Positions 2,302-23,686 of a stretch of DNA of 25,316 nt are shown in pieces. How positions within the stretch are numbered: position 1 is the stretch's first letter; each line of letters starts with the position of its first letter. This stretch comes from a virus. Under the pieces are notes generated by a model, which was not told where the DNA came from, searched no databases, and saw only the letters and a program-made list of their open reading frames with translations. Both the position numbers and the translations under genes were made by a program. The stretch lies in IMG/VR virus record IMGVR_UViG_3300021171_000040, positions 1 through 25,316 of that record. One strand, given 5' to 3'.

Positions 2302-3735
2302 ATGCCTGATATAGGTTCAGTTGATACCTCAAGTTATCCAAAAGCAACTATGCAAGTTTCACCACTTGACTTAGCGCAGAAGCTTGGAAACATTCAGCAG
2401 CAATCATTAAATATTAGTCAATCAAAACTTGATTTAATGAACCATCAATTCAGCTTAATGAATGCTGAATTGTCATCTATGAGTGATGATCCAAAAATAA
2501 CTAAAGAACAAGCTGCTGCTAGATTAAATAAATTTGCTGATACGTTTAGTTTACCTGATCCAGTTAGACAGCATATGATGGGAGAATTAGCAGCCGCTCC
2601 TAGTGTTAAATCATTTTCTGATAATGCTTTGCGTAGGGGGATGGATGTTCAACAAAAAATTAATAGACAGTATGGATCAAATTCAACACAGCAAGATAAT
2701 ACTAATATCTATCAAGGTGTAACAGCTTCTCCTGCTGCTGGTGGTGGTTTTACACCTTCCACTCAAATGCCTATCCAACCGCCTCCAACACAACCAAATG
2801 TGAACAATCAACCTACCTTACCTAATGGACAGCCTAATCCAGCTTATATGCAGCCGGGAATTGTTGGAGCTGCTGGTCCTCCCGGTGTGGTCCCTGCTGC
2901 TCCTGTCGCTGCCCCTAGAATGCCTGTCCAACAGCCTACGCTGCCCGTACAGCGTCCTCCTGCTGCTGTCCCCGGTCCTATCACCAATCCAGCTATTCGC
3001 GGTCCTAGCACCAATTTTTCGCCTCCGGGGATGCCTCCCGGTTCAACTACAAGAGTAACTGGAGCTACAGTACAACCTCCACCATCTATTGTAACTGGTC
3101 CTCCTGCTAATTTTGAAGTAGGTCAAAAATTGTACGCTCAAGATCAAGCTAGTTCTACAGCTAAAGCTACTTCATTAAAACCATTAGAAGAAGCTTATGA
3201 TTTAGCTAAAAATGTAGCTACAGGGTCTGGTACAGAAAGTTTAAATAAAGCTAGAGCATATTTAGCTAATATTGGTTTAATTAAAGCTGATGAAAAAAAT
3301 CCTACTGTTATTTATCAAATGTTGAATAAAAATTTAGCTCAGTTTATTGATAAAACAGGTTCGCGTTCTGATGCAGATTTAGCTGTTAAAGAAAGTGGAA
3401 ACGCTAATGCTAAAACTCAATTGCAGCCTGCATTGCTTCATATGGTTCAAAAAATCATAGGTCGTGAACGAATTGAAATAGCTAGACCGCAAGCTTTTGA
3501 AGGTGCTGATTATCAAAATTATGGAAAGCATTCTGCTCTATTCCCCACAAGTCAGGATGAGCGAGCTTACTCAATTGATAAGATGGAACCTCAAGCTGCT
3601 AAAGCATTATACGCTGATATGAGAAATAAAGCATTGAATGGTAAAACTCCAGCAGAGCAAGCTGAAGGAGCTAAATTTTTAAGATCATTAAGTGTAGCTA
3701 AGAAAACAGGACAAGTTAGCGGATTGGGGCAATAA
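2302..3735 (+). CDS. Proline/glutamine-rich virion-associated protein, putative ejection component
   Basis: This 477-residue protein is preceded by AGGATGA about nine bases upstream of its ATG. Residues 15-110 are helical and Gln-rich (QKLGNIQQQSLNISQSKLDL). Residues about 130-270 are an extended, disordered, Pro/Gln/Ala-rich linker with many PP and PG pairs and locally higher GC. Residues 275-477 return to a helical domain with no enzyme motif that I recognise. A helical head, disordered linker and helical tail between the two DNA-transfer genes suggest an internal virion protein that threads through the portal, by analogy with P22 gp20/gp16. That role is inferred only from position and architecture. 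There is no signal peptide or membrane segment. Confidence 0.6.
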   Translation: MPDIGSVDTSSYPKATMQVSPLDLAQKLGNIQQQSLNISQSKLDLMNHQFSLMNAELSSMSDDPKITKEQAAARLNKFADTFSLPDPVRQHMMGELAAAPSVKSFSDNALRRGMDVQQKINRQYGSNSTQQDNTNIYQGVTASPAAGGGFTPSTQMPIQPPPTQPNVNNQPTLPNGQPNPAYMQPGIVGAAGPPGVVPAAPVAAPRMPVQQPTLPVQRPPAAVPGPITNPAIRGPSTNFSPPGMPPGSTTRVTGATVQPPPSIVTGPPANFEVGQKLYAQDQASSTAKATSLKPLEEAYDLAKNVATGSGTESLNKARAYLANIGLIKADEKNPTVIYQMLNKNLAQFIDKTGSRSDADLAVKESGNANAKTQLQPALLHMVQKIIGRERIEIARPQAFEGADYQNYGKHSALFPTSQDERAYSIDKMEPQAAKALYADMRNKALNGKTPAEQAEGAKFLRSLSVAKKTGQVSGLGQ

Positions 3736-3736
3736 A

Positions 3737-3896
3737 ATGAAATGTCATTTCTGCGAAAAAGAAGCTCAATATGAATTAACTTTAAAAAGTGATGGAACTA
3801 AAACTTTAGAATTTGCACCAAATGCAAAATCTATTTTATGTTTGTCAATCTCATTTAGATGCTGGTGATATTCCTGTGAGAGATAAAACAAATTAA
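3737..3896 (+). pseudogene. Tiny zinc-motif gene interrupted by a +1 frameshift
   Basis: An ATG one base after the previous stop opens a frame reading MKCHFCEKEAQYELTLKSDG and ends early at TGA 3866-3868 (43 residues). Skipping one T in the TTT at 3841-3843 moves to the +1 frame, which reads CQSHLDAGDIPVRDKTN and stops at TAA 3894-3896, sharing its last base with the next ATG (TAATG). The repaired product would be about 52 residues with an N-terminal CxxC and a second cysteine pair followed by QSH, a plausible zinc knuckle. Zinc site completion and the tight TAATG junction in the shifted frame argue that the shifted half was coding. The cause could be a real inactivating insertion, an assembly error in a T run, or ribosomal frameshifting. 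Confidence 0.6.
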
Positions 3897-6040
3897 TGCC
3901 TGATCTTCAAGGTATAGACTTAAATGATTTAGATAGCTCATTTGGCGGTAAGTCAAGTGGAGCTACAACTACGCCTAAAATAGAAGGTGTTAATTTACAA
4001 GATTTGGATAAGAATTTTGGATACGTAGAGACTGCTCCTATAGGTAAAGATGTTAAGCGAGTTATCATTAATACAGGTAAAAAAGATGATACGTTTGATT
4101 ATATAAATCCTGATTTACTTAAAGGTGCTGTACAAGGTTTAAAAGATATTCCAGCTTCTGGAGCACAGTTAATAGGAGCTGCTGATAGAGCTATCTCTAA
4201 AGTACTTCCTACTGGTGGTACTGAAAGAGCTGATGCTTATGAAGCTAGATTAAAAGCTGAAAATGAAGCTTTACCTAAAGACAATACTGCTTTTGATGTT
4301 GGTCGCACGGGAGGACAGATTTTAGCTACTGCTCCTTTAATGACTGGAGTACCATTTCAAGCTGTTAGCGCAGCAACTAAGTCTATTCCAGTTGTAGGAA
4401 AATTATCAGGATTAGTTGCCAATGGTGCTATGTCCGGTGGTCTTTTTGGAGCATCTACTAATTCAGCAAATGACGAAGGATTGGTATCTAATGTGGGTAC
4501 AAATACTCTTTATGGGGCCGCTGCTGGTCCTGTAATTGCTGCTGGAGCTAAAGTAGCAGGAAAAGTTATAAGTTCTGCTCAAGATATAGCTAGAGCTATT
4601 AAAACTAATAATATTTTAAAAAATTCTGGTATTGATCCTAACGCAGCTAAAAATATTTTATCTCGTTTGACTGATGCTGGTTATACTCCTGATCAAGCTC
4701 ATATTGAATTACAACGTATGGGGCATGAAGCTACGTTATCTGATCTAACTCCTTCTTTAACAACTGAAGCTGGTGGTTTAGCATCTAAAGGTGGTATGCC
4801 TACAGAAACTTTAAAATCTAGATTTGATGCTAGAGCAGCTGGAGCTAATAACGCTGCTCATGATATTATGGAAACTAGACTTGGGCCTAAGCCTGATTAT
4901 GAAGTTGAAAAGGAAGCTGCTAGAATAGATAGACAAACTCAGACAGCTCCTGATTATAATAGAGCTAAAGCTAGTAAAATGGCTTTAGATGTTCAACCTT
5001 TAGCAGATTATATAAAAAGTGAATTAAAAGATGCTGTTGGATCAGAAGCTTCATATTTAAAAGATATAGGGTCTTATTTGTTTGATAATAAGGGAAATAT
5101 AAAGACTGATACAGCTCCATTACATAAAGTTAGGATAGCTCTTGATGGACTTTTAGAAAAATTACCACAAGAAGGAACTAGCCAAGCTAGCGGTACATAT
5201 AGAGCTATTGAAAGAGTGAGAAATAAATTAGATACTATTTTAAAAATTAATCCTGATATGGCAATAGCTGATGCTAAATTTGCTAAGTTAGCTGAAGATT
5301 TTAAAGGAGTTGATATAGGTAAAAAAGCTATTGGGCCGCGTGGTAATTATGATGAGTTTGCTAGAGAGTTTAATTCAGCTTCTCCTGAGAAACAAGAATA
5401 TATGCGTAAAGGATTACGCATTCAAATTGGTGATCAGATGGAGAAAGCTACTCGTGGTGAATTGTCAGAAGCTCAGAGATTATTTGGTAAGTCAACCGCT
5501 AATCGAGATATTATTAAATTAGCTTTTGGTTCTGATGGAGATGAAGTTTTAAATGCTCTTGAAAAAGAAGCTAAATTTAGAAGTACAGAAAGATCAATTA
5601 GTGCAAATAGTTTAACAGCAGAACGCCGTGCGGTTCAAGAGCGTTCTGAATATGGTGGTTCGGCTCATGAGGGACATTATTTAACTCCAGTTGCATCAGG
5701 AGCAGCTTTAGATTTAGTTACAGGTACTCCGGGTGGAGCAACAGCTATTGGAGCTGGTAAAGGTGTAGTAGAAGGTATTAGAGAAAGAGTTTTAAGAAAT
5801 AAAATTAAAAATACTGTAGAAGGATCAGCAGATTTACTCTCTAGGCAAGGGAGAGAACGGGATACTGCTTTGGATTTTATGAGGAGGATTAATCAAGTGA
5901 ACAGTAGAAATAAGTTCAAACTCCCCATTGATAATAGTGGGATCATTACTGGTATTGCTACTCCTGCTGTAATTCCTGCTATCAAAAGGATTAAGAGAGG
6001 TATTCACACTCTCGCTGGTATCAGTGAGCAACCATCTTAA
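3896..6040 (+). CDS. Large DNA-ejection / internal virion protein
   Basis: This 714-residue protein has no catalytic motif that I recognise. The N-terminus holds a repeated motif, GIDLNDLDSSFG (residues 6-17) and GVNLQDLDKNFG (31-42), exactly 25 residues apart. Residues about 140-230 are Gly/Ala-rich and mildly hydrophobic (GGQILATAPLMTGVPFQAV, TLYGAAAGPVIAAGAKVAG) and may interact with membranes. The remainder is long, helical and charged. Size, composition and position after the DNA-transfer gene fit an ejected internal virion protein comparable in role to P22 gp16 or T7 inner-core proteins. No transglycosylase motif is obvious. The start overlaps the shifted-frame stop of the small zinc gene by one base. 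The next gene follows after a 91-base gap. Confidence 0.65.
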   Translation: MPDLQGIDLNDLDSSFGGKSSGATTTPKIEGVNLQDLDKNFGYVETAPIGKDVKRVIINTGKKDDTFDYINPDLLKGAVQGLKDIPASGAQLIGAADRAISKVLPTGGTERADAYEARLKAENEALPKDNTAFDVGRTGGQILATAPLMTGVPFQAVSAATKSIPVVGKLSGLVANGAMSGGLFGASTNSANDEGLVSNVGTNTLYGAAAGPVIAAGAKVAGKVISSAQDIARAIKTNNILKNSGIDPNAAKNILSRLTDAGYTPDQAHIELQRMGHEATLSDLTPSLTTEAGGLASKGGMPTETLKSRFDARAAGANNAAHDIMETRLGPKPDYEVEKEAARIDRQTQTAPDYNRAKASKMALDVQPLADYIKSELKDAVGSEASYLKDIGSYLFDNKGNIKTDTAPLHKVRIALDGLLEKLPQEGTSQASGTYRAIERVRNKLDTILKINPDMAIADAKFAKLAEDFKGVDIGKKAIGPRGNYDEFAREFNSASPEKQEYMRKGLRIQIGDQMEKATRGELSEAQRLFGKSTANRDIIKLAFGSDGDEVLNALEKEAKFRSTERSISANSLTAERRAVQERSEYGGSAHEGHYLTPVASGAALDLVTGTPGGATAIGAGKGVVEGIRERVLRNKIKNTVEGSADLLSRQGRERDTALDFMRRINQVNSRNKFKLPIDNSGIITGIATPAVIPAIKRIKRGIHTLAGISEQPS

Positions 6041-13735: not shown

Positions 13736-15667
13736 TTAAAAAAACTGCAATTGTTTAGGCCTTTGATGATACCCAATTTCCTCTAAAATCTCATTAGTCT
13801 TTTTAATGTACCAATCATAATTAATATCTGGCCATTCGTTAGGAAAGTCCATGAACGGCACAGCTCCATCAGTATCAGCTACTTTATTTCCGGTAGTAAC
13901 ATAATTAATAGTTCCAGCTTCACCTTTAATGTAAGCCCAACGTACCACTTTACCAAGATATTCTTTGTTTTTGTGTGCTCCTCCTTTGACCTGTCTGACA
14001 GTAACAAATCTTGTAAAGTCTTTGCATTCTCTAATAGTGTGCTCAATTGGTATTCCTTTTGATAGTAGAGCTTCTACAGCATCAGAGCAAATCAATACCA
14101 TTGGATTAGTATCTAATTTGGTTCCAGATTGTGAACCTATCTCTGAATACGGACCCTTCTTCTTGACCGTGCCATCAACTTTAATGGCAAAATAAGCATT
14201 AACGTCACGAGCATAATAAGCCACATATCTAGTTTCCTCTGTTTCAAATCCAGTACGTTGTTCCCAATCCTTGATAACATATTTTAAAGTATCTTCTTGA
14301 TCTTTCCTAACAATCATTACAACACCATCAGTATTAGCACTAATGACTTGAATGCTATTTAATTCAAGCATTTCTATTTGCATGAGCAAAGCTAATTGCC
14401 CTGTTACTGTCATTTGAATAGTCAAATCTGGAGCATAAAGAATGCTCCAGAAATCGCTAAATTTCCCTCCAGCTCCATTGATAACAATCTTCTTTCCAGC
14501 ACTTTCAGTAGTCCGCTTAGCTCTCTTGGCAGCTATTCGACTATCAATGATATGATTGTAAACTTCTAGGAATGCTGGTCCGCATGATTGTGGGTATAAT
14601 CCTAAAGTGGTTACTATTTTAGGATAATAGCTAACAACATCCCTATCGACAATACTGTTATTGTTGTCACTGATATATCGAACATTCTTTTCAGAAGAAT
14701 GTAATCCTCCAATACCAAGTCTATATGATCCTGTTCCAATTCTGACATTAGTTTTTAACTCCTCTGGTAAATCAATTTTTCCAAATCCATTGACAATAAA
14801 TTTAGCTACTCTGATTTTACCAAGCATTAGCTTTAATTCAGTAGATTGATACTCAATATAATTTGGAATTGAGTATCTATAAATAGTTCCTGTATCTATT
14901 TCAGCTCTTTTAGGACGGCTACTATTAATTTTACCAACTTCCTTAGCTAATACTACTTCAGCAATTTGAGCATCTGACTTGCTCATTAAATCTTCATTGT
15001 ATTCAATGCTCATATTCTGGCGAAGGTCTAGACGCTCTTTCATAAAATTAAAAAGCAATTCTGTTCCGTTTAGATCATTAGCATTATACTGTTTAATTAT
15101 TTCTATTTCTTCCTCAGTTAATTCTTTCATATGATCAATTGGTAGCTCTTGAATGCGAGGAGCATGAAGCCTTGCCATGTAAAGTTTTAAACTTCCTTTC
15201 AATGGAGCTACTTCAATTAAATCAATATGAGGAGTTTTGTAAGTAAAAAATCCATACTTCTTTTTTAATTCTTGTGAACGCATTTCACTTAAGATTATAT
15301 CATTAGTTGCATCTTTTAAAATATAAGTATCTTGATTACGATAAGCTAACCATATCATTAGCAAATCAAACTTGATTGAATTAAAGCCAATTGTTCTATA
15401 GTTATGGAGCAGCCAAGATAGGAATTGTTGATTAAATGATTTACCTTCCCCACACTCTAATTGAATGAATTTATTCAGTTTGGGAGATTTAAAAGCACAT
15501 AAGAAATAATTAGGATGGCATTCAACATCTACAAATAAATCTGATCCTATGTTAGCCAATATCTCAGCATCAGTCATTAACTCACGCTTGATAAATTCGC
15601 GTGGTTTGTAGGGGAGAAGGTCTACAGACTTCTCAAACGTGATTAGATTATTTTGATTTAATTGCAT
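13736..15667 (-). CDS. Family B-like DNA polymerase with 3'-5' exonuclease
   Basis: This is a 643-residue replicative polymerase. Exonuclease motifs are in order: ExoI FVDVEC (D47, E49), ExoII GFNSIKFD (N96, D101), ExoIII YNANDL (Y194, D198). Polymerase motif A is DRDVVSYYPKIV (D343, S346, YYP 347-349), comparable to the family B DxxSLYPS. Motif B is around KKIVINGAGGKF (392-403). Motif C is SANTDGVV (D447), where the usual DTD is NTD and the following serine is glycine. The protein is short for family B, so insertions and the thumb are reduced. It is last in the minus operon, its ATG sharing one base with the methyltransferase stop (TAATG), and lies downstream of a clamp candidate, helicase and SSB. 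It synthesises the phage DNA. Confidence 0.82.
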   Translation of the reverse strand: MQLNQNNLITFEKSVDLLPYKPREFIKRELMTDAEILANIGSDLFVDVECHPNYFLCAFKSPKLNKFIQLECGEGKSFNQQFLSWLLHNYRTIGFNSIKFDLLMIWLAYRNQDTYILKDATNDIILSEMRSQELKKKYGFFTYKTPHIDLIEVAPLKGSLKLYMARLHAPRIQELPIDHMKELTEEEIEIIKQYNANDLNGTELLFNFMKERLDLRQNMSIEYNEDLMSKSDAQIAEVVLAKEVGKINSSRPKRAEIDTGTIYRYSIPNYIEYQSTELKLMLGKIRVAKFIVNGFGKIDLPEELKTNVRIGTGSYRLGIGGLHSSEKNVRYISDNNNSIVDRDVVSYYPKIVTTLGLYPQSCGPAFLEVYNHIIDSRIAAKRAKRTTESAGKKIVINGAGGKFSDFWSILYAPDLTIQMTVTGQLALLMQIEMLELNSIQVISANTDGVVMIVRKDQEDTLKYVIKDWEQRTGFETEETRYVAYYARDVNAYFAIKVDGTVKKKGPYSEIGSQSGTKLDTNPMVLICSDAVEALLSKGIPIEHTIRECKDFTRFVTVRQVKGGAHKNKEYLGKVVRWAYIKGEAGTINYVTTGNKVADTDGAVPFMDFPNEWPDINYDWYIKKTNEILEEIGYHQRPKQLQFF

Positions 15668-16518
15668 TAATTATTTCCGAATGGAGAATACCAAAATAAC
15701 CAAGAAATCATATTGATAGTCCAACAATTTCCTAACATTTTATATCTTTCATTTGGACTAAATCCTTTAGTATAATCATCAGGTAAAGTTTGTAATCTTT
15801 CACATTCAATAGGAGTTAAATACCTACAATAATCTTCAAATTCTATTAAACCGGCGTTTCCCCATCTATCCTGGCGAGTAGTTAGACAATTTGATTTATT
15901 AGAATAAGTTATATTTTTACATTTACCTTCTAACCACATTTTATCTCTAGATGGAGTTTTATTAACTTTATAATTTTTAATTAATTTATAATCTCTAATT
16001 AATATATCTTGTAAATTTATTTTAAAATCATAAGGTTCTGGTACTTCCCAATTTTTCCAATACAATCTTTTTCTATGTTGTGCTGAAACTTTTACTGAAT
16101 TTAATTCAACATAATTAACATTAAGTCTTTTATTAATAGTTAAAACATAAGACCAATCCATTGGTGTATTTTCTAATAAAAAATATTTTGGCTTAATTTC
16201 TTTAATAGCTCTTTCAAATTCAAAATATAATTTTGATTCAGGATGATTGAAGCCCAATTGATTACCTAAAAAACTAAATCCTTGGCAAGGTGATCCTCCT
16301 ATTATTAGATCAATATTTTTAAATTTACTAAAATTAGCATTTTCAACTGAACCATGATGAATAACTTCAGGATGATTATTTTTAGTAACTTGAATAGCTT
16401 TATAATCTATTTCATAAGCATGATATTCTGATATATTTATTTTAGCTCTTTTTAATGCAACTAACCCACAAGCTATTCCATCAAATAAACTTAATACTTT
16501 AATTCCGTTCACGGCCAC
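15667..16518 (-). CDS. DNA (cytosine-5) methyltransferase
   Basis: I place the start at the GTG at 16518, six bases after GGGGAG; a GTG at 16512 is also possible. The 16572 ATG would overlap the upstream gene by over 70 bases. The product is 283 residues: motif I LSLFDGIACG (9-18), motif IV GGSPCQGFS with the catalytic cysteine C78, motif VI LLENT (E116), motif VIII SAQHRKRLYW (145-154), and near the end ECERLQTLPDDYT and YKMLGNCWTINM (motifs IX-X). The layout resembles compact Dnmt3-like phage enzymes. It transfers methyl from SAM to cytosine C5 at an unknown site. No restriction enzyme accompanies it, so self-protection against host restriction is likely. The gene looks even more AT-rich than the clamp and polymerase genes. 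Confidence 0.9.
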   Translation of the reverse strand: MAVNGIKVLSLFDGIACGLVALKRAKINISEYHAYEIDYKAIQVTKNNHPEVIHHGSVENANFSKFKNIDLIIGGSPCQGFSFLGNQLGFNHPESKLYFEFERAIKEIKPKYFLLENTPMDWSYVLTINKRLNVNYVELNSVKVSAQHRKRLYWKNWEVPEPYDFKINLQDILIRDYKLIKNYKVNKTPSRDKMWLEGKCKNITYSNKSNCLTTRQDRWGNAGLIEFEDYCRYLTPIECERLQTLPDDYTKGFSPNERYKMLGNCWTINMISWLFWYSPFGNN

Positions 16519-17503
16519 TAATAACTCCCCGCATCGCGTCACCTTCAAATTTAAGCATATAACTAGCTCCACTTAATCCCTTAGCCATAAAATCAATAGT
16601 TTTAACATGTCCCTTCATCATCATGAGCTGTTTAATTGGATAAATAAATCCTTTTGGAATACCGTTGCATTCATGACTTGCTCCTGTATTTTCAGGATGG
16701 CTCATGAGTAAATTTATATCAGAATAAACATTACCACTATCTGAAAATGGTGCAATAGCTTCCAAAGCTTTAAAGAAATTAGGATCAATAGCCCATAGAT
16801 TAGCTTCAATATTTAATATCCTGCTTACATCAGGCCACGTATCAGAATATAGCTGCGTTCTTAGCCAATATCCATCTTCAAAATAAAATGTAGCTGATGA
16901 ATTTGAAAATCCAAATCCAATAAGATTTTTCTTTTGTTTTACCAGAGCTGATACAAATTGTTTTGGTAAAGGTATGTTAGGTGGTAAATCTAACCCATGC
17001 CAATATTCAAAAAGCATTAAGCGATTAGTTGATATGACGCTTTGCCCATTCATTAAAATTGAAGCTGTTAAGACATGTTGTGCATTCTCACTTGCTAATA
17101 CTCCTACTGCTTCTACAGCCTCTTTAAAGCGATTGGTGATAGGAGCTATCATAGGATCAGGTTGAGCATCCTGCATTAAATTAGGATCAAGGCAAGGTAC
17201 AATAGCTTTAAATTTTCCTGATTTAATTGATAGCCTTCCGTTATCCAATTGAGTAAATGAATAACCTTCATCGCATTTAGATAGAGCTTCAACCATTAAA
17301 AGAGTGTGAGGATGACAATACAAATCTTCAATAATTGGAGCACCAGCAGCAATGATACCATTAAACGCAATAGCCCAATTATTTTTAAGACCAATATGCG
17401 TTTCATATGGTGTTCCTAGTTTCTCACTAACACATGAACAAAATTCTAACGCTTGAAGAAGTGAGGATTTAGTTTCAGTTTTAATAGTTGGTTTACGTGC
17501 CAT
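16499..17503 (-). CDS. Putative DNA sliding clamp (beta-clamp-like)
   Basis: This 334-residue protein contains no nucleotide-binding or catalytic motif. Its repeated alternation of strands and short helices, and its ending in a basic RGVISGRERN resembling the C-terminal strand of bacterial beta clamps, suggest a processivity clamp. Segments NGQSVISTNRLMLFEYWHG, LIGFGFSNSSATFYFEDG and YSDTWPDVSRILN fit the clamp-like pattern of a ligand-displaying strand, a paired domain and the WPD-type turn. It sits two genes upstream of the DNA polymerase, where a clamp would be expected. Its ATG shares a base with the previous stop (TGATG). If it is not a clamp it is a conserved replication-associated phage protein. 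Structure prediction would settle this. Confidence 0.6.
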   Translation of the reverse strand: MARKPTIKTETKSSLLQALEFCSCVSEKLGTPYETHIGLKNNWAIAFNGIIAAGAPIIEDLYCHPHTLLMVEALSKCDEGYSFTQLDNGRLSIKSGKFKAIVPCLDPNLMQDAQPDPMIAPITNRFKEAVEAVGVLASENAQHVLTASILMNGQSVISTNRLMLFEYWHGLDLPPNIPLPKQFVSALVKQKKNLIGFGFSNSSATFYFEDGYWLRTQLYSDTWPDVSRILNIEANLWAIDPNFFKALEAIAPFSDSGNVYSDINLLMSHPENTGASHECNGIPKGFIYPIKQLMMMKGHVKTIDFMAKGLSGASYMLKFEGDAMRGVISGRERN

Positions 17504-17811
17504 CAGAAAGGTATATTATCATCATCAAGGTACTCAGGGCAAGAATATACAATTATCTCAGTAGGAGGCTTAGCGTTAAATTTTTTACATAAGTCACGTT
17601 CATTACTCCAATGCTGGCAATTTAAACAGTTTTGGTAAGCTCTAGAATTAGCTATCAATCTGACTAAATCAGATTGAAGTTCTAGATAAACATTTTGCCT
17701 AATGATTGGAGTTGGTTGTTTATACATTATTTTATTAATTCCTTCAAATATCTTACCATTAACTAACGTTGTAAATATTCCTGAATAAGGTGTGTAATTA
17801 TGTTTATACAT
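17503..17811 (-). CDS. Small zinc-binding phage protein
   Basis: The product is 102 residues if translation starts at the ATG at 17811, which overlaps the stop of the upstream small gene by eight bases. A second ATG at 17727 (74 residues) has GAAGGA upstream, though twelve bases away, and starts nearer the conserved-looking part (TPIIRQNVYLELQSDLVRLI). Cysteines in CLNCQHW, DLCKKF and VYSCPEY form a likely four-cysteine zinc site, and the tail is acidic (YLDDDNIPF). Proteins of this pattern are frequent small neighbours of phage replication genes with unknown role. It may be an adaptor or nucleic-acid-binding factor. The stop overlaps the clamp start. Confidence 0.65.
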   Translation of the reverse strand: MYKHNYTPYSGIFTTLVNGKIFEGINKIMYKQPTPIIRQNVYLELQSDLVRLIANSRAYQNCLNCQHWSNERDLCKKFNAKPPTEIIVYSCPEYLDDDNIPF

Positions 17812-17953
17812 TTTTAGGCCAATACCTATAAGAAAGTTTATGACATTTTTTACACATTAAAACTTCTCTAGGTCCATTCATCGTCATTATATTTGAAGCA
17901 TGAATATAATCATGTTCGCATAATCCAAATAAATTTCTAAGCCATTTAATCAT
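17804..17953 (-). CDS. 49-residue zinc-knuckle protein
   Basis: This short gene fills the space between the HNH gene and the 102-residue zinc protein. It reads MIKWLRNLFGLCEHDYIHAS, then NIMTMNGPREVLMCKKCHKL and SYRYWPKNV. C12 and H14 with C34 and C37 make a credible zinc site, and CxxC-H is typical of short phage zinc ribbons. A GTGAG element seven bases upstream can serve as ribosome site; that element lies inside the residual copy of the helicase end. Its stop overlaps the next possible start (ATGTATAA). The cysteine pattern and exact fit between neighbours support it. Function unknown. Confidence 0.65.
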   Translation of the reverse strand: MIKWLRNLFGLCEHDYIHASNIMTMNGPREVLMCKKCHKLSYRYWPKNV

Positions 17954-17954
17954 T

Positions 17955-17987
17955 TTACATCTCACAACTCAATATTTCAGGATGTTT
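17955..17987 (-). repeat. Residual second copy of the helicase 3' end
   Basis: On the minus strand this reads codons for KHPEILSCEM and TAA. The functional helicase ends KHPEILSCEF and TAA at 18507-18475. Nine of ten residues are identical, yet Pro, Ile, Leu and Ser use different codons (CCA/CCT, ATT/ATA, CTC/TTG, TCT/AGT). The copy lies on the far side of the HNH gene, whose own stop falls inside it in another frame. It is one base away from the next gene's ATG, the spacing expected of the original helicase/next-gene junction. It has no start and is not expressed as a protein. Confidence 0.8.
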
Positions 17988-18471
17988 TTACATTTAAAGT
18001 GCCATTACCTGCAAATCCCTCATGATATAATTTCTCAGCGGCTAATCTAGCTTGTATAGCATCTTCTTTAAGTGCGAAAGTTCCTAATCTAATTCTTTCT
18101 CCCCTAACTCTTATATAAGCTGTCCAATAACCTCTATCTTCTCTAAATTGCAATCCTTTAGCTTCATTTTCTAAGTTAGTAGGTCGTCTGTTAAATTGAT
18201 TTTGTGAAAAATCACAAATTCTTAAATTATTTTTAGTACAATCTAATCCATTACCATTCTCATGATCAACTAAAATATTTCTAGATTTAACATTTAAAAT
18301 TATCCTATGTAGCATTCCAGCATGTTTATTAGTTACTAAAAATTTACAAACTACATATCTAGTATATCCTCCCTTAGTTATCATAGTATTTAAATGATAT
18401 TTAAATAAAATATCTTTATCTTCATCATCTACAAAGATTTGCCTTCCTGTATTCATAGTATAAGTAAACAT
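17977..18471 (-). CDS. HNH homing endonuclease with AP2-like DNA-binding domain
   Basis: This 164-residue protein contains an HNH nuclease fold at about residues 53-95 (MLHRIILNVKSRNILVDHENG, followed by LDCTKNNLRICDFSQNQFN), with the H of LHR, the DHENG histidine and the NNLR asparagine as expected catalytic or metal residues. Residues 104-150 are AP2-like (KGLQFREDRGYWTAYIRVRG, then ERIRLGTFALKEDAIQARLA). This pairing is standard for free-standing phage homing endonucleases. It starts three bases after the helicase stop. It is visibly more AT-rich than the helicase. Its last codons read into the residual helicase copy, showing that it is inserted. There is no room for a self-splicing intron around it. 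Confidence 0.9.
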   Translation of the reverse strand: MFTYTMNTGRQIFVDDEDKDILFKYHLNTMITKGGYTRYVVCKFLVTNKHAGMLHRIILNVKSRNILVDHENGNGLDCTKNNLRICDFSQNQFNRRPTNLENEAKGLQFREDRGYWTAYIRVRGERIRLGTFALKEDAIQARLAAEKLYHEGFAGNGTLNVKTS

Positions 18472-18474
18472 AAT

Positions 18475-20082
18475 TTAAAACTCACAAGAGAGAATTTCTG
18501 GATGTTTTTTATTACAGTGTACTCTAATATATCTAGGGCAACGTAATTCGCTTATTTTTAAAAGAGCATTGTCTATTGTTAAAGGTGGTTCTTCTCTATG
18601 CCGACGCCTCCACCAATCCCTAGCAATCTTACCAGCCATTCCTTTGTGCTCCAAGCAAATATATTCCTTATAGGATAGTCCATTTGTGAAATAAGTTACC
18701 TTTAGCGTAGGAGGTTTGTCATTGAAATGATTTTTATGTTTAGCGTAAATAGCGTATTGAACAGGAAAGGTTTCAATAATTGGTAATTCTTCTTTTATAG
18801 CAGCTCTCAATAATTCTTCAGTACCAGCTTTTGAAACAAGCTTTTGCTGAAAGGTAAAAGCTTCATTACATTGACAGCAAACTTTAGCAGAAATGTGATT
18901 ATAAGCTCCACAATTTTCACAGAGCTTAATTGGCATTTCTCCCGGTAATCCCTTTTTCATCTTAGGAATAGCAGGATCATTAATAGGACCAAGGCGAGGC
19001 GTGTTGCGGGCGAAGTCTAAAACCAAGCAATTGTTCTTACCTTCAGCAGGCCTTGTGCCCCGTCCTAGCATCTGCACCCATAATGGTACGCTCAAGGTTG
19101 GTCTTAACATTCCTATAAGGTCAATTTCAGGGTGATCAAATCCTGTCGTAAGCTTTCCGTAATTAACGATAGCTCTAAGCTCATTTCGTTTAAACGCTCT
19201 AATTGCTTCATCGTTATAATTTGTTTCTCGCTTTGAATGCACCGGAGCACAATCAATCCCAAAAGCCCCAAGTTGCTCTGCAATATGCTCAGCATGTTCA
19301 ATACCTGATGCGAAGATAAGCCAGCTTCTCCGATTTTTCCCAGCATGTGCTAATTCCTGAAGTGCTTTATAAGTTATCTCTGCTTTATCAACAGCTCCTT
19401 GAAGTTGAGTAGCAACAAACTCGCCTTGCTGTACTCCAACATCTGAAACGTCAAGCTCCGTCTTGGTTCTGAGCGGAATTAAAGGAGAAATAAAACCTTG
19501 CTCAACAAGCTGATTAAAACCGTTTAAGCTTGTTAGGTCATGACAAATATCTGTAAAAATTCCACCTTGATCAGTTATCATACCACTCCCCATTCTATAG
19601 GGAGTAGCAGTCATTCCAATGACTTTTAAAGCTGGATTTATAAGCTTCATCATAGCAAGAAAAGTATTATACATTGATGCATCGTTATTAGAAATTAAAT
19701 GCGCCTCATCAATAAAAATAATATCACGCCTTCCGAATAGGGTAGCTCCTTTCCTTACTGTGCTTTGAATACCAGCATAAATTATAGGATGAGCTGTATC
19801 ACGTTGTTTTAAACCTGCACTATGAATACCTAGTGGTGCTTCTGGCCATACTAATTTTAAAATATTAGCATTTTGAGAAATAAGAGTTGAAACATGAGTT
19901 AATAGCATAAATCTTTGGGTAGGCCAAAGTCTCATAGTTTCTCGAATAAAGATTACAGGAGCAATACTTTTACCTGTACCTGTAGGCCAACATAAAACAG
20001 GATTACCAGTTTGACCACTTTGAAAATAATTCCAAAGTGCATTTAATCCGTCTATTTGATAAGGACGTAACTCTATATTCAT
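18475..20082 (-). CDS. SF2 DNA helicase (DEAH-type) with zinc finger
   Basis: This is a 535-residue superfamily 2 helicase. RPYQ (6-9) opens the ATPase core; Walker A is PTGTGKS (33-39); motif II is IDEAH (124-128); motif III is MTATP (157-161). The C-terminal RecA domain has NYGKLTTGFDHP (307-318) and motif VI QMLGRGTRPAEG (337-348). A zinc finger follows (C388, C391, C402/C403, C405) and then an unassigned C-terminal domain. It uses ATP to move on or unwind DNA, presumably in phage replication or recombination. Its ATG abuts the stop of the nuclease gene upstream. The last codons are duplicated beyond the HNH gene, so the present C-terminus (SCEF) may be a replacement brought in with the HNH element. 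Confidence 0.92.
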   Translation of the reverse strand: MNIELRPYQIDGLNALWNYFQSGQTGNPVLCWPTGTGKSIAPVIFIRETMRLWPTQRFMLLTHVSTLISQNANILKLVWPEAPLGIHSAGLKQRDTAHPIIYAGIQSTVRKGATLFGRRDIIFIDEAHLISNNDASMYNTFLAMMKLINPALKVIGMTATPYRMGSGMITDQGGIFTDICHDLTSLNGFNQLVEQGFISPLIPLRTKTELDVSDVGVQQGEFVATQLQGAVDKAEITYKALQELAHAGKNRRSWLIFASGIEHAEHIAEQLGAFGIDCAPVHSKRETNYNDEAIRAFKRNELRAIVNYGKLTTGFDHPEIDLIGMLRPTLSVPLWVQMLGRGTRPAEGKNNCLVLDFARNTPRLGPINDPAIPKMKKGLPGEMPIKLCENCGAYNHISAKVCCQCNEAFTFQQKLVSKAGTEELLRAAIKEELPIIETFPVQYAIYAKHKNHFNDKPPTLKVTYFTNGLSYKEYICLEHKGMAGKIARDWWRRRHREEPPLTIDNALLKISELRCPRYIRVHCNKKHPEILSCEF

Positions 20083-23146: not shown

Positions 23147-23686
23147 TTACCTAATGTTAGGATAATTTTTCATTCTATTACGTTTAGGTCTACAGATATT
23201 ACAATTACAATAATAACCTTCAGGACAAGGCCAATTTGTCATATCTCTTTTAGCAAAACTTAAAGCTTTCTTATGTTCTTCAGATTTAGGTTTTTTCATC
23301 TTATCTGTATTTGATTTTCTTATTCCAGTCATAGAAACTGACATTTTATTTTTTATTTCTTGACTTTTAATTCTTCCTAATGGCGATGGTGGTCGTAACG
23401 CATCTGGATTTATATTATACCCTAATTCTATATCACAAGCTCCTAAACTATCAATCCAAAATTGTTCGCGTTCTAGCATTTTATTTAAAGGCACAAGTTC
23501 TATAACTATAAACTCAAAGGCATTAGGGCCATATTTATTCCAAGCTCTTTGTAAATGTTGGTTATCATGATTGCCTTTTCTAAGCTTTCTCTCATGTTCA
23601 AACCATCTTATGTCATAATCATAACTATGCCCTATGTAAAATTTTCCATTAATTAAATTTAAAATTTGGTATATACAAGACTTCAT
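23147..23686 (-). CDS. GIY-YIG homing endonuclease with NUMOD-like region
   Basis: This 179-residue protein opens with the GIY-YIG module: CIYQILNLINGKFYIGHSYD (4-23; IYQ and YIG are the signature strands), IRWFEHERKLRKG with the catalytic arginine (R27), and EREQFWIDSLGACD with the glutamate (E73). Residues 98-150 (PSPLGRIKSQEIKNKMSVSM, TGIRKSNTDKMKKPKSEEHK) resemble NUMOD3 DNA-binding repeats, and a C-terminal CPEGYYCNCNIC cluster may bind zinc. It overlaps the upstream gene by ATGA and ends three bases before the ATPase start. It is a selfish free-standing endonuclease lodged in a recombination operon. It is more AT-rich than its neighbours. Confidence 0.88.
   Translation of the reverse strand: MKSCIYQILNLINGKFYIGHSYDYDIRWFEHERKLRKGNHDNQHLQRAWNKYGPNAFEFIVIELVPLNKMLEREQFWIDSLGACDIELGYNINPDALRPPSPLGRIKSQEIKNKMSVSMTGIRKSNTDKMKKPKSEEHKKALSFAKRDMTNWPCPEGYYCNCNICRPKRNRMKNYPNIR

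Follow-up and report, generated by a model that had tools for sequence, protein, structure and literature searches.

Mobile elements that supply a replacement for the gene end they displace are familiar from integrases, which restore the ends of the tRNA genes into which they insert; these systems use a site-specific recombinase, the target is an RNA gene, and the replaced end is identical in sequence rather than diverged. Protein-coding targets are known from the mobile ORFs of fungal mitochondria, which have brought in foreign and mostly synonymous C-terminals of atp6, atp9, cox2 and nad3, the native ends being stranded beyond the endonuclease. The atp6 gene of Allomyces was the first case of a fungal mobile ORF with a foreign C-terminal, and atp6, atp9, cox2 and nad3 of Glomus are others (PMC3630166). 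In phages, the intergenic HNH or GIY-YIG genes of the T4 mob/seg type cleave a gene next to them and co-convert the flanks as they move, and in T4 homing with homology on one side and illegitimate microhomology joints on the other has been documented; a stranded native end together with a respelled replacement is not described for them in the part of that account used here (PMC2988022). The IPA-HNH homing endonucleases of phages, which combine HNH and AP2 domains, cluster near essential phage genes, and the sections of the source drawn on here report no end duplication or restoration for them (PMC10448857).

Here we analyse a viral DNA of 25,316 nucleotides (IMG/VR record IMGVR_UViG_3300021171_000040; the whole stretch is called the window), in which a gene for a free-standing endonuclease of the HNH-AP2 type is found at the 3' end of a helicase gene. 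The region is a phage replication module comprising a Cas4-type exonuclease, the helicase, small genes, a clamp and a DNA polymerase, and the same module also occurs in Xanthomonas, Paracoccus, Pseudomonas, Escherichia and Rhodobacter phages. Along the minus strand the helicase is followed by the HNH gene, a second copy of the helicase end (the outer copy), a small gene whose product begins MIKWLRN, a conserved small gene and the clamp (Table 1); the MIKWLRN gene gave a weak match to families of small phage proteins. Elsewhere in the window, a C5 cytosine methyltransferase gene (15667-16572) lies between the clamp and the DNA polymerase, which directly adjoin each other in cultured relatives, and a GIY-YIG endonuclease gene (23147-23686) is flanked by a DUF7173 gene and an AAA gene and overlaps the upstream stop codon. 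On inspection by eye, no end duplication was seen around the GIY-YIG gene.

Table 1. Positions of the features discussed, in the window unless another locus is named.
Feature	Position	Strand	Remarks
Superfamily II helicase gene (ResIII + Helicase_C)	18475..20082	(-)	ends NKKHPEILSCEF and stop, the inner, expressed copy
Inner copy of helicase 3' end, KHPEILSCEF and stop	18475..18507	(-)	probably brought in by the HNH cassette
Free-standing HNH-AP2 endonuclease gene, 164 aa	17977..18471	(-)	stop lies inside the outer copy
Outer copy, KHPEILSCEM and stop	17955..17987	(-)	putative stranded relic of the original helicase end
Right joint (approximate limits)	17977..17994	(-)	helicase codons AAAACATCCTGA follow directly on AATGTA, the HNH 3' end
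Small gene MIKWLRN...PKNV and stop, 49 aa	17804..17953	(-)	putative original neighbour of the helicase
Replication-module gene phrog_23504, conserved	17503..17811	(-)	directly 3' of the helicase in several empty-site relatives
HNH cassette with 63-bp relic and 63-bp respelled start in phages, with the insert-less close relative SP5M	G7C (L308) 3471-4100; SP5M (L309) 3471-3533; Bp4 (L310)		

The helicase ends with AAACATCCAGAAATTCTCTCTTGTGAGTTTTAA, and it can be seen that on the far side of the HNH gene this end is present again as AAACATCCTGAAATATTGAGTTGTGAGATGTAA, followed after a single base by ATGATTAAATGG. The second copy had been pointed out in a preliminary description of this DNA, and it is real: the two copies match at 25 of 33 bases and at 9 of 10 residues (10/11 symbols counting the stop), and the next-best match to KHPEILSCEF and stop in the whole window, read in six frames, is 5/11. 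The sequence also confirms that four codons differ silently between the inner and the outer copy (Pro CCA/CCT, Ile ATT/ATA, Leu CTC/TTG and Ser TCT/AGT) and that the HNH stop codon, TGA at 17979-17977, lies within the outer copy, out of frame with it. A test of the duplication that used the DNA only was weaker, its score being reached by 1 of 2000 dinucleotide shuffles, which is expected because the DNA is AT-rich. Since a sibling contig (L002), possibly from the same sample, agrees with the window at every one of 5866 bases, it is unlikely that the duplication is a slip of assembly.

Between the inner and the outer copy pS is 0.60 and pN is 0.20, and when the window helicase is compared with 13 relatives these values are 0.65-0.80 and 0.11-0.24. 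The two copies have therefore diverged in the manner of orthologous helicases from different phages, and we conclude that two lineages have been joined here, rather than that a local duplication has drifted. The inner copy had been described as a synonymously recoded end; it is indeed diverged while conserving the protein, but the silent divergence is that of ordinary orthologues, as the comparison with whole helicases shows, and nothing in it is designed. The outer codons are slightly closer than the inner codons to phages without the HNH gene (25/30 against 24/30 for L033), a small difference. From the structure of the junction, and by analogy with a case described below, the outer copy would be the native-type end.

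The HNH product matches the phrog_99 HNH endonuclease family (E 2.2e-27), and its matches to Pfam AP2 and HNH_3 are weak and below the cut-off; the HNH motif DH...N is intact, and DH and N are invariant in the alignment. The gene is sporadic at a fixed site and is missing from most relatives, in keeping with the earlier proposal that it is an added element. One relative (L008) has the same HNH at the same position, with 76% amino-acid identity to that of the window, and another (L005) has a different HNH-AP2 gene at exactly the same spot; in both, the endonuclease gene ends in a V-stop overlapping ATGTATAAAC, and neither has an outer copy. At the DNA level L008 and the window are 78.8% identical in the HNH gene, 64.7% in the helicase end, 69.1% in the following gene and 69.0% in the clamp. 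As the HNH gene is better conserved than the core genes surrounding it, it has most likely moved after these phages diverged. In L008 the native overlap of the HNH and the next gene is AATGTATAAACAACC, and the joint in the window, AATGTA followed by AAAACATCCTGA, differs from it at 2 of 15 bases in an ungapped comparison; the right joint therefore looks like a microhomology joint, if an imperfect one.

The C-terminal motif NKxxPEILxxE of the helicase is highly conserved among phage relatives. Relatives were drawn from 80 helicase loci in viral contigs. None of 32 relatives without this HNH repeats its own helicase end, the best match within 1 kb downstream being 5/11. The HNH-less relatives have a single helicase end; the next conserved gene, which often starts ATGTATAAACAACC, comes immediately after it or is separated from it by small accessory genes, and the small genes that occupy the spot between the two differ from relative to relative. 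Neither HNH-less relatives carrying both copies nor a single end equal to the inner copy was seen. It had been proposed that the original junction ran from the helicase through SCEM and the stop codon into the next gene; the tight stop/start junction of the outer copy speaks for this, but a relative without HNH in which the end SCE-x is followed after one base by MIKWLRN was not found, and a search for relatives of the MIKWLRN gene and of the gene following it matched only the identical sibling contig. In a sliding comparison with 22 relatives, there was no clear switch of the kind expected of a co-conversion tract in the window helicase; its mild drop in identity near the end was common to other members.

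Of 18 loci from phage isolates, one showed the same pattern: in Escherichia phage G7C the HNH gene gp41.1 lies before the exonuclease gene gp42. Its close relative, phage SP5M, is without this HNH, and there the start of gp42 adjoins gp41 directly. The G7C relic is identical to the intact SP5M gp42 start at 63/63 positions, whereas the gp42 start found 3' of the HNH in G7C matches it at 43/63 (pS 0.82). From codon 22 on, pS between the two gp42 genes is 0.16, and identity is back to 96% exactly at base 63. This is also the maximum-likelihood breakpoint and equals the length of the relic, and the gain in likelihood was matched by 0 of 500 permutations. The foreign tract in G7C is just the replaced end, with no long co-converted region, and simple mosaicism is therefore disfavoured in this phage. 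The cassette of an endonuclease and a respelled target end that had been suggested for the window can thus be observed directly in G7C, together with the native relic and the foreign end; the same anatomy may be assigned to the window by analogy. Phage Bp4 has the same cassette, with an HNH that is 95% identical. Separately, the DNA polymerase gene of SP5M (L309, 1364-1906) is split by another HNH gene that overlaps both fragments, and it is intact in G7C.

In a survey of 126 distinct HNH-AP2 loci, taken from contigs of viruses and bacteria, the flanks were compared in all frames, and 3000 mismatched flank pairs served as the null. Four of the 126 loci, namely the window, L232, L129 and L280, scored above all 3000 mismatched pairs; in three of the four it is a 3' end that is duplicated. 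In L232 (1343-2570) a ThyX gene (Pfam Thy1) ends LANKIREALLPAFPRVLG... and LARKIREALLPAFPHVLG... is found beyond the HNH-AP2 gene; the duplicated end is of 23 codons, with silent changes at most of the shared residues and silent divergence that is near-saturated. In L129 (1880-2540) a family A DNA polymerase ends HRWSGLKKVKD..., with YKWSTLKKVKN... beyond the HNH-AP2 gene, and a relative of this locus that lacks the HNH (L206, 4231-4400) has a single polymerase end. L280 (1827-2817) is a mirror image, in which the stranded 5' end of a DUF968-like gene precedes the HNH and the respelled intact gene follows it. Where a 3' end is duplicated, the outer copy and the next gene meet in a tight stop/start arrangement (TAA-A-ATG, TTAATG and ATGGATGA), and in L280 the start of the relic overlaps the stop of the preceding gene; such junctions are what a native arrangement predicts. 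A test of silent against replacement changes gave a strong result at three loci, namely the window, L232 and L280; it was weaker at L129, a locus that passes the full neutral null only (P 0.009). Counting G7C, the genes with duplicated ends encode a helicase, a polymerase, ThyX, an exonuclease and a DUF968-like protein, and the duplicated end is about 10 codons long in the window and 13-24 in the other cases. A further candidate, L153 (EPIPGPEILLE/GPVPGPEIALG), was dropped as its score lay below the null maximum.

The reading that we favour, at a probability of roughly three in four, is that a cassette encoding a free-standing homing endonuclease of the HNH-AP2 type entered the helicase gene at its last codons and rebuilt the helicase end. 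The endonuclease would cut the intact gene end, and repair would copy in the cassette from another phage lineage, together with the final helicase codons as they are spelled in that lineage. The helicase side of the break would be repaired by homology, and on the other side microhomology would have linked the 3' end of the HNH gene to helicase codons of the recipient itself, so that 33 bp of native sequence would be left stranded beyond the insert. The new end would keep the helicase functional, and the relic would preserve the ribosome-binding context of the next gene. The insertion would have split the recognition site, and a gene rebuilt in native codons would contain that site again; being spelled differently, the new end probably blocks recutting of the restored gene. 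Against this reading speak the L008 locus, which has the same HNH but no outer copy, and the lack of a clear co-conversion tract in the window helicase.

A potential explanation that would not need to invoke homing or rescue is ordinary mosaicism, in which a single illegitimate joint connected a lineage with the order helicase-HNH to a lineage with the order helicase-MIKWLRN; the HNH gene would then be resident, and the MIKWLRN module would have brought a scrap of foreign helicase with it. The window joint does look like a microhomology joint, the spot between the helicase and the next gene is variable in small-gene content among relatives, and nuclease genes often mark exchange boundaries (PMC10448857). 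However, a simple joint would not give a foreign tract that, as in G7C, is exactly the 63 bp of the relic with both flanks native, nor is it favoured by the recurrence of the arrangement around unrelated target genes or by an HNH that is more conserved than its own flanks, and we consider mosaicism unlikely.

An insert flanked by two copies is also what a local duplication of the target site would leave, whether it arose by slippage or by insertion, if the non-coding copy then drifted. The differences between the copies are mostly silent, however: neutral decay after a local duplication predicts that about 4.7 of the 10 residues are kept, and about 7 with half of the changes assigned to the constrained copy, as against the 9 observed (P < 0.001 and P 0.03, respectively), which makes this origin very improbable. 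There is next to no chance that the HNH gene lies inside a self-splicing intron with the outer copy as the true downstream exon. HNH genes are often found in group I introns (PMC10448857), but only about 25 bp of the 520-bp insert lie outside the ORF, and the same peptide end on the 5' side is not expected of an intron. No Rfam intron match was obtained in the window or in the other cases, and with no intron core and too little non-ORF sequence a group I intron-encoded endonuclease was rejected.

The cassette reading places these loci close to the fungal mobile ORFs, with which they share a diverged end that is fused to the gene upstream of the endonuclease and a native end that is stranded downstream. 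A further feature of that type, near-identity of the native end with the one end present in a closely related genome that lacks the insert, is seen in the G7C/SP5M pair (63/63). They differ in that the setting here is a phage and the enzyme HNH-AP2, whereas the fungal elements are found in an organelle with LAGLIDADG or GIY-YIG enzymes and mostly longer replaced ends; moreover, only 3' ends are described for the fungal elements, and the phage cases also include the 5' mirror image (PMC3630166). The phage cases are thus distinct in enzyme family, in compactness, in drawing on both 3' and 5' ends and in the genes targeted. The initial claim of novelty for a protein-coding target is accordingly reduced, since the fungal mobile ORFs do likewise. 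Searches of the phage literature found no description of the pattern; PMC3630166 cites a 1992 thesis on T-even introns in connection with mobile ORFs that carry coding sequence, and this may hold an earlier phage precedent. With the T4-type genes the loci share an intergenic endonuclease and probably one-sided events with microhomology joints, and with the IPA-HNH enzymes their domain architecture. The logic is also that of synthetic homing-rescue and toxin-antidote drives, in which a cutter is combined with a recoded piece of an essential target that restores function and resists cutting; those are engineered CRISPR systems, and the analogy implies no shared descent (PMC7068947).

On balance we think it probable that phages carry recurrent natural home-and-rescue elements, that is, HNH-AP2 cassettes that carry, in respelled form, a short 3' or 5' piece of an essential target gene, selected because the gene is restored and self-cleavage is prevented. 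Such elements would be a natural counterpart of the engineered recoded-rescue gene drives, and would explain how a free-standing endonuclease with neither intron nor intein can invade essential coding sequence without host death. The footprint of native relic and respelled end would show precisely where the insertion took place and probably where the recognition site lies, and with the G7C/SP5M pair homing with rescue is directly testable in E. coli. Ends of this kind will mislead gene callers and phylogenies of phage replication genes. We also note that the motif ATGTATAAACA, or near copies of it, occurs at three successive gene joints 3' of the helicase (17720-17820 and 17977-17994), as if this boundary had gained modules repeatedly.
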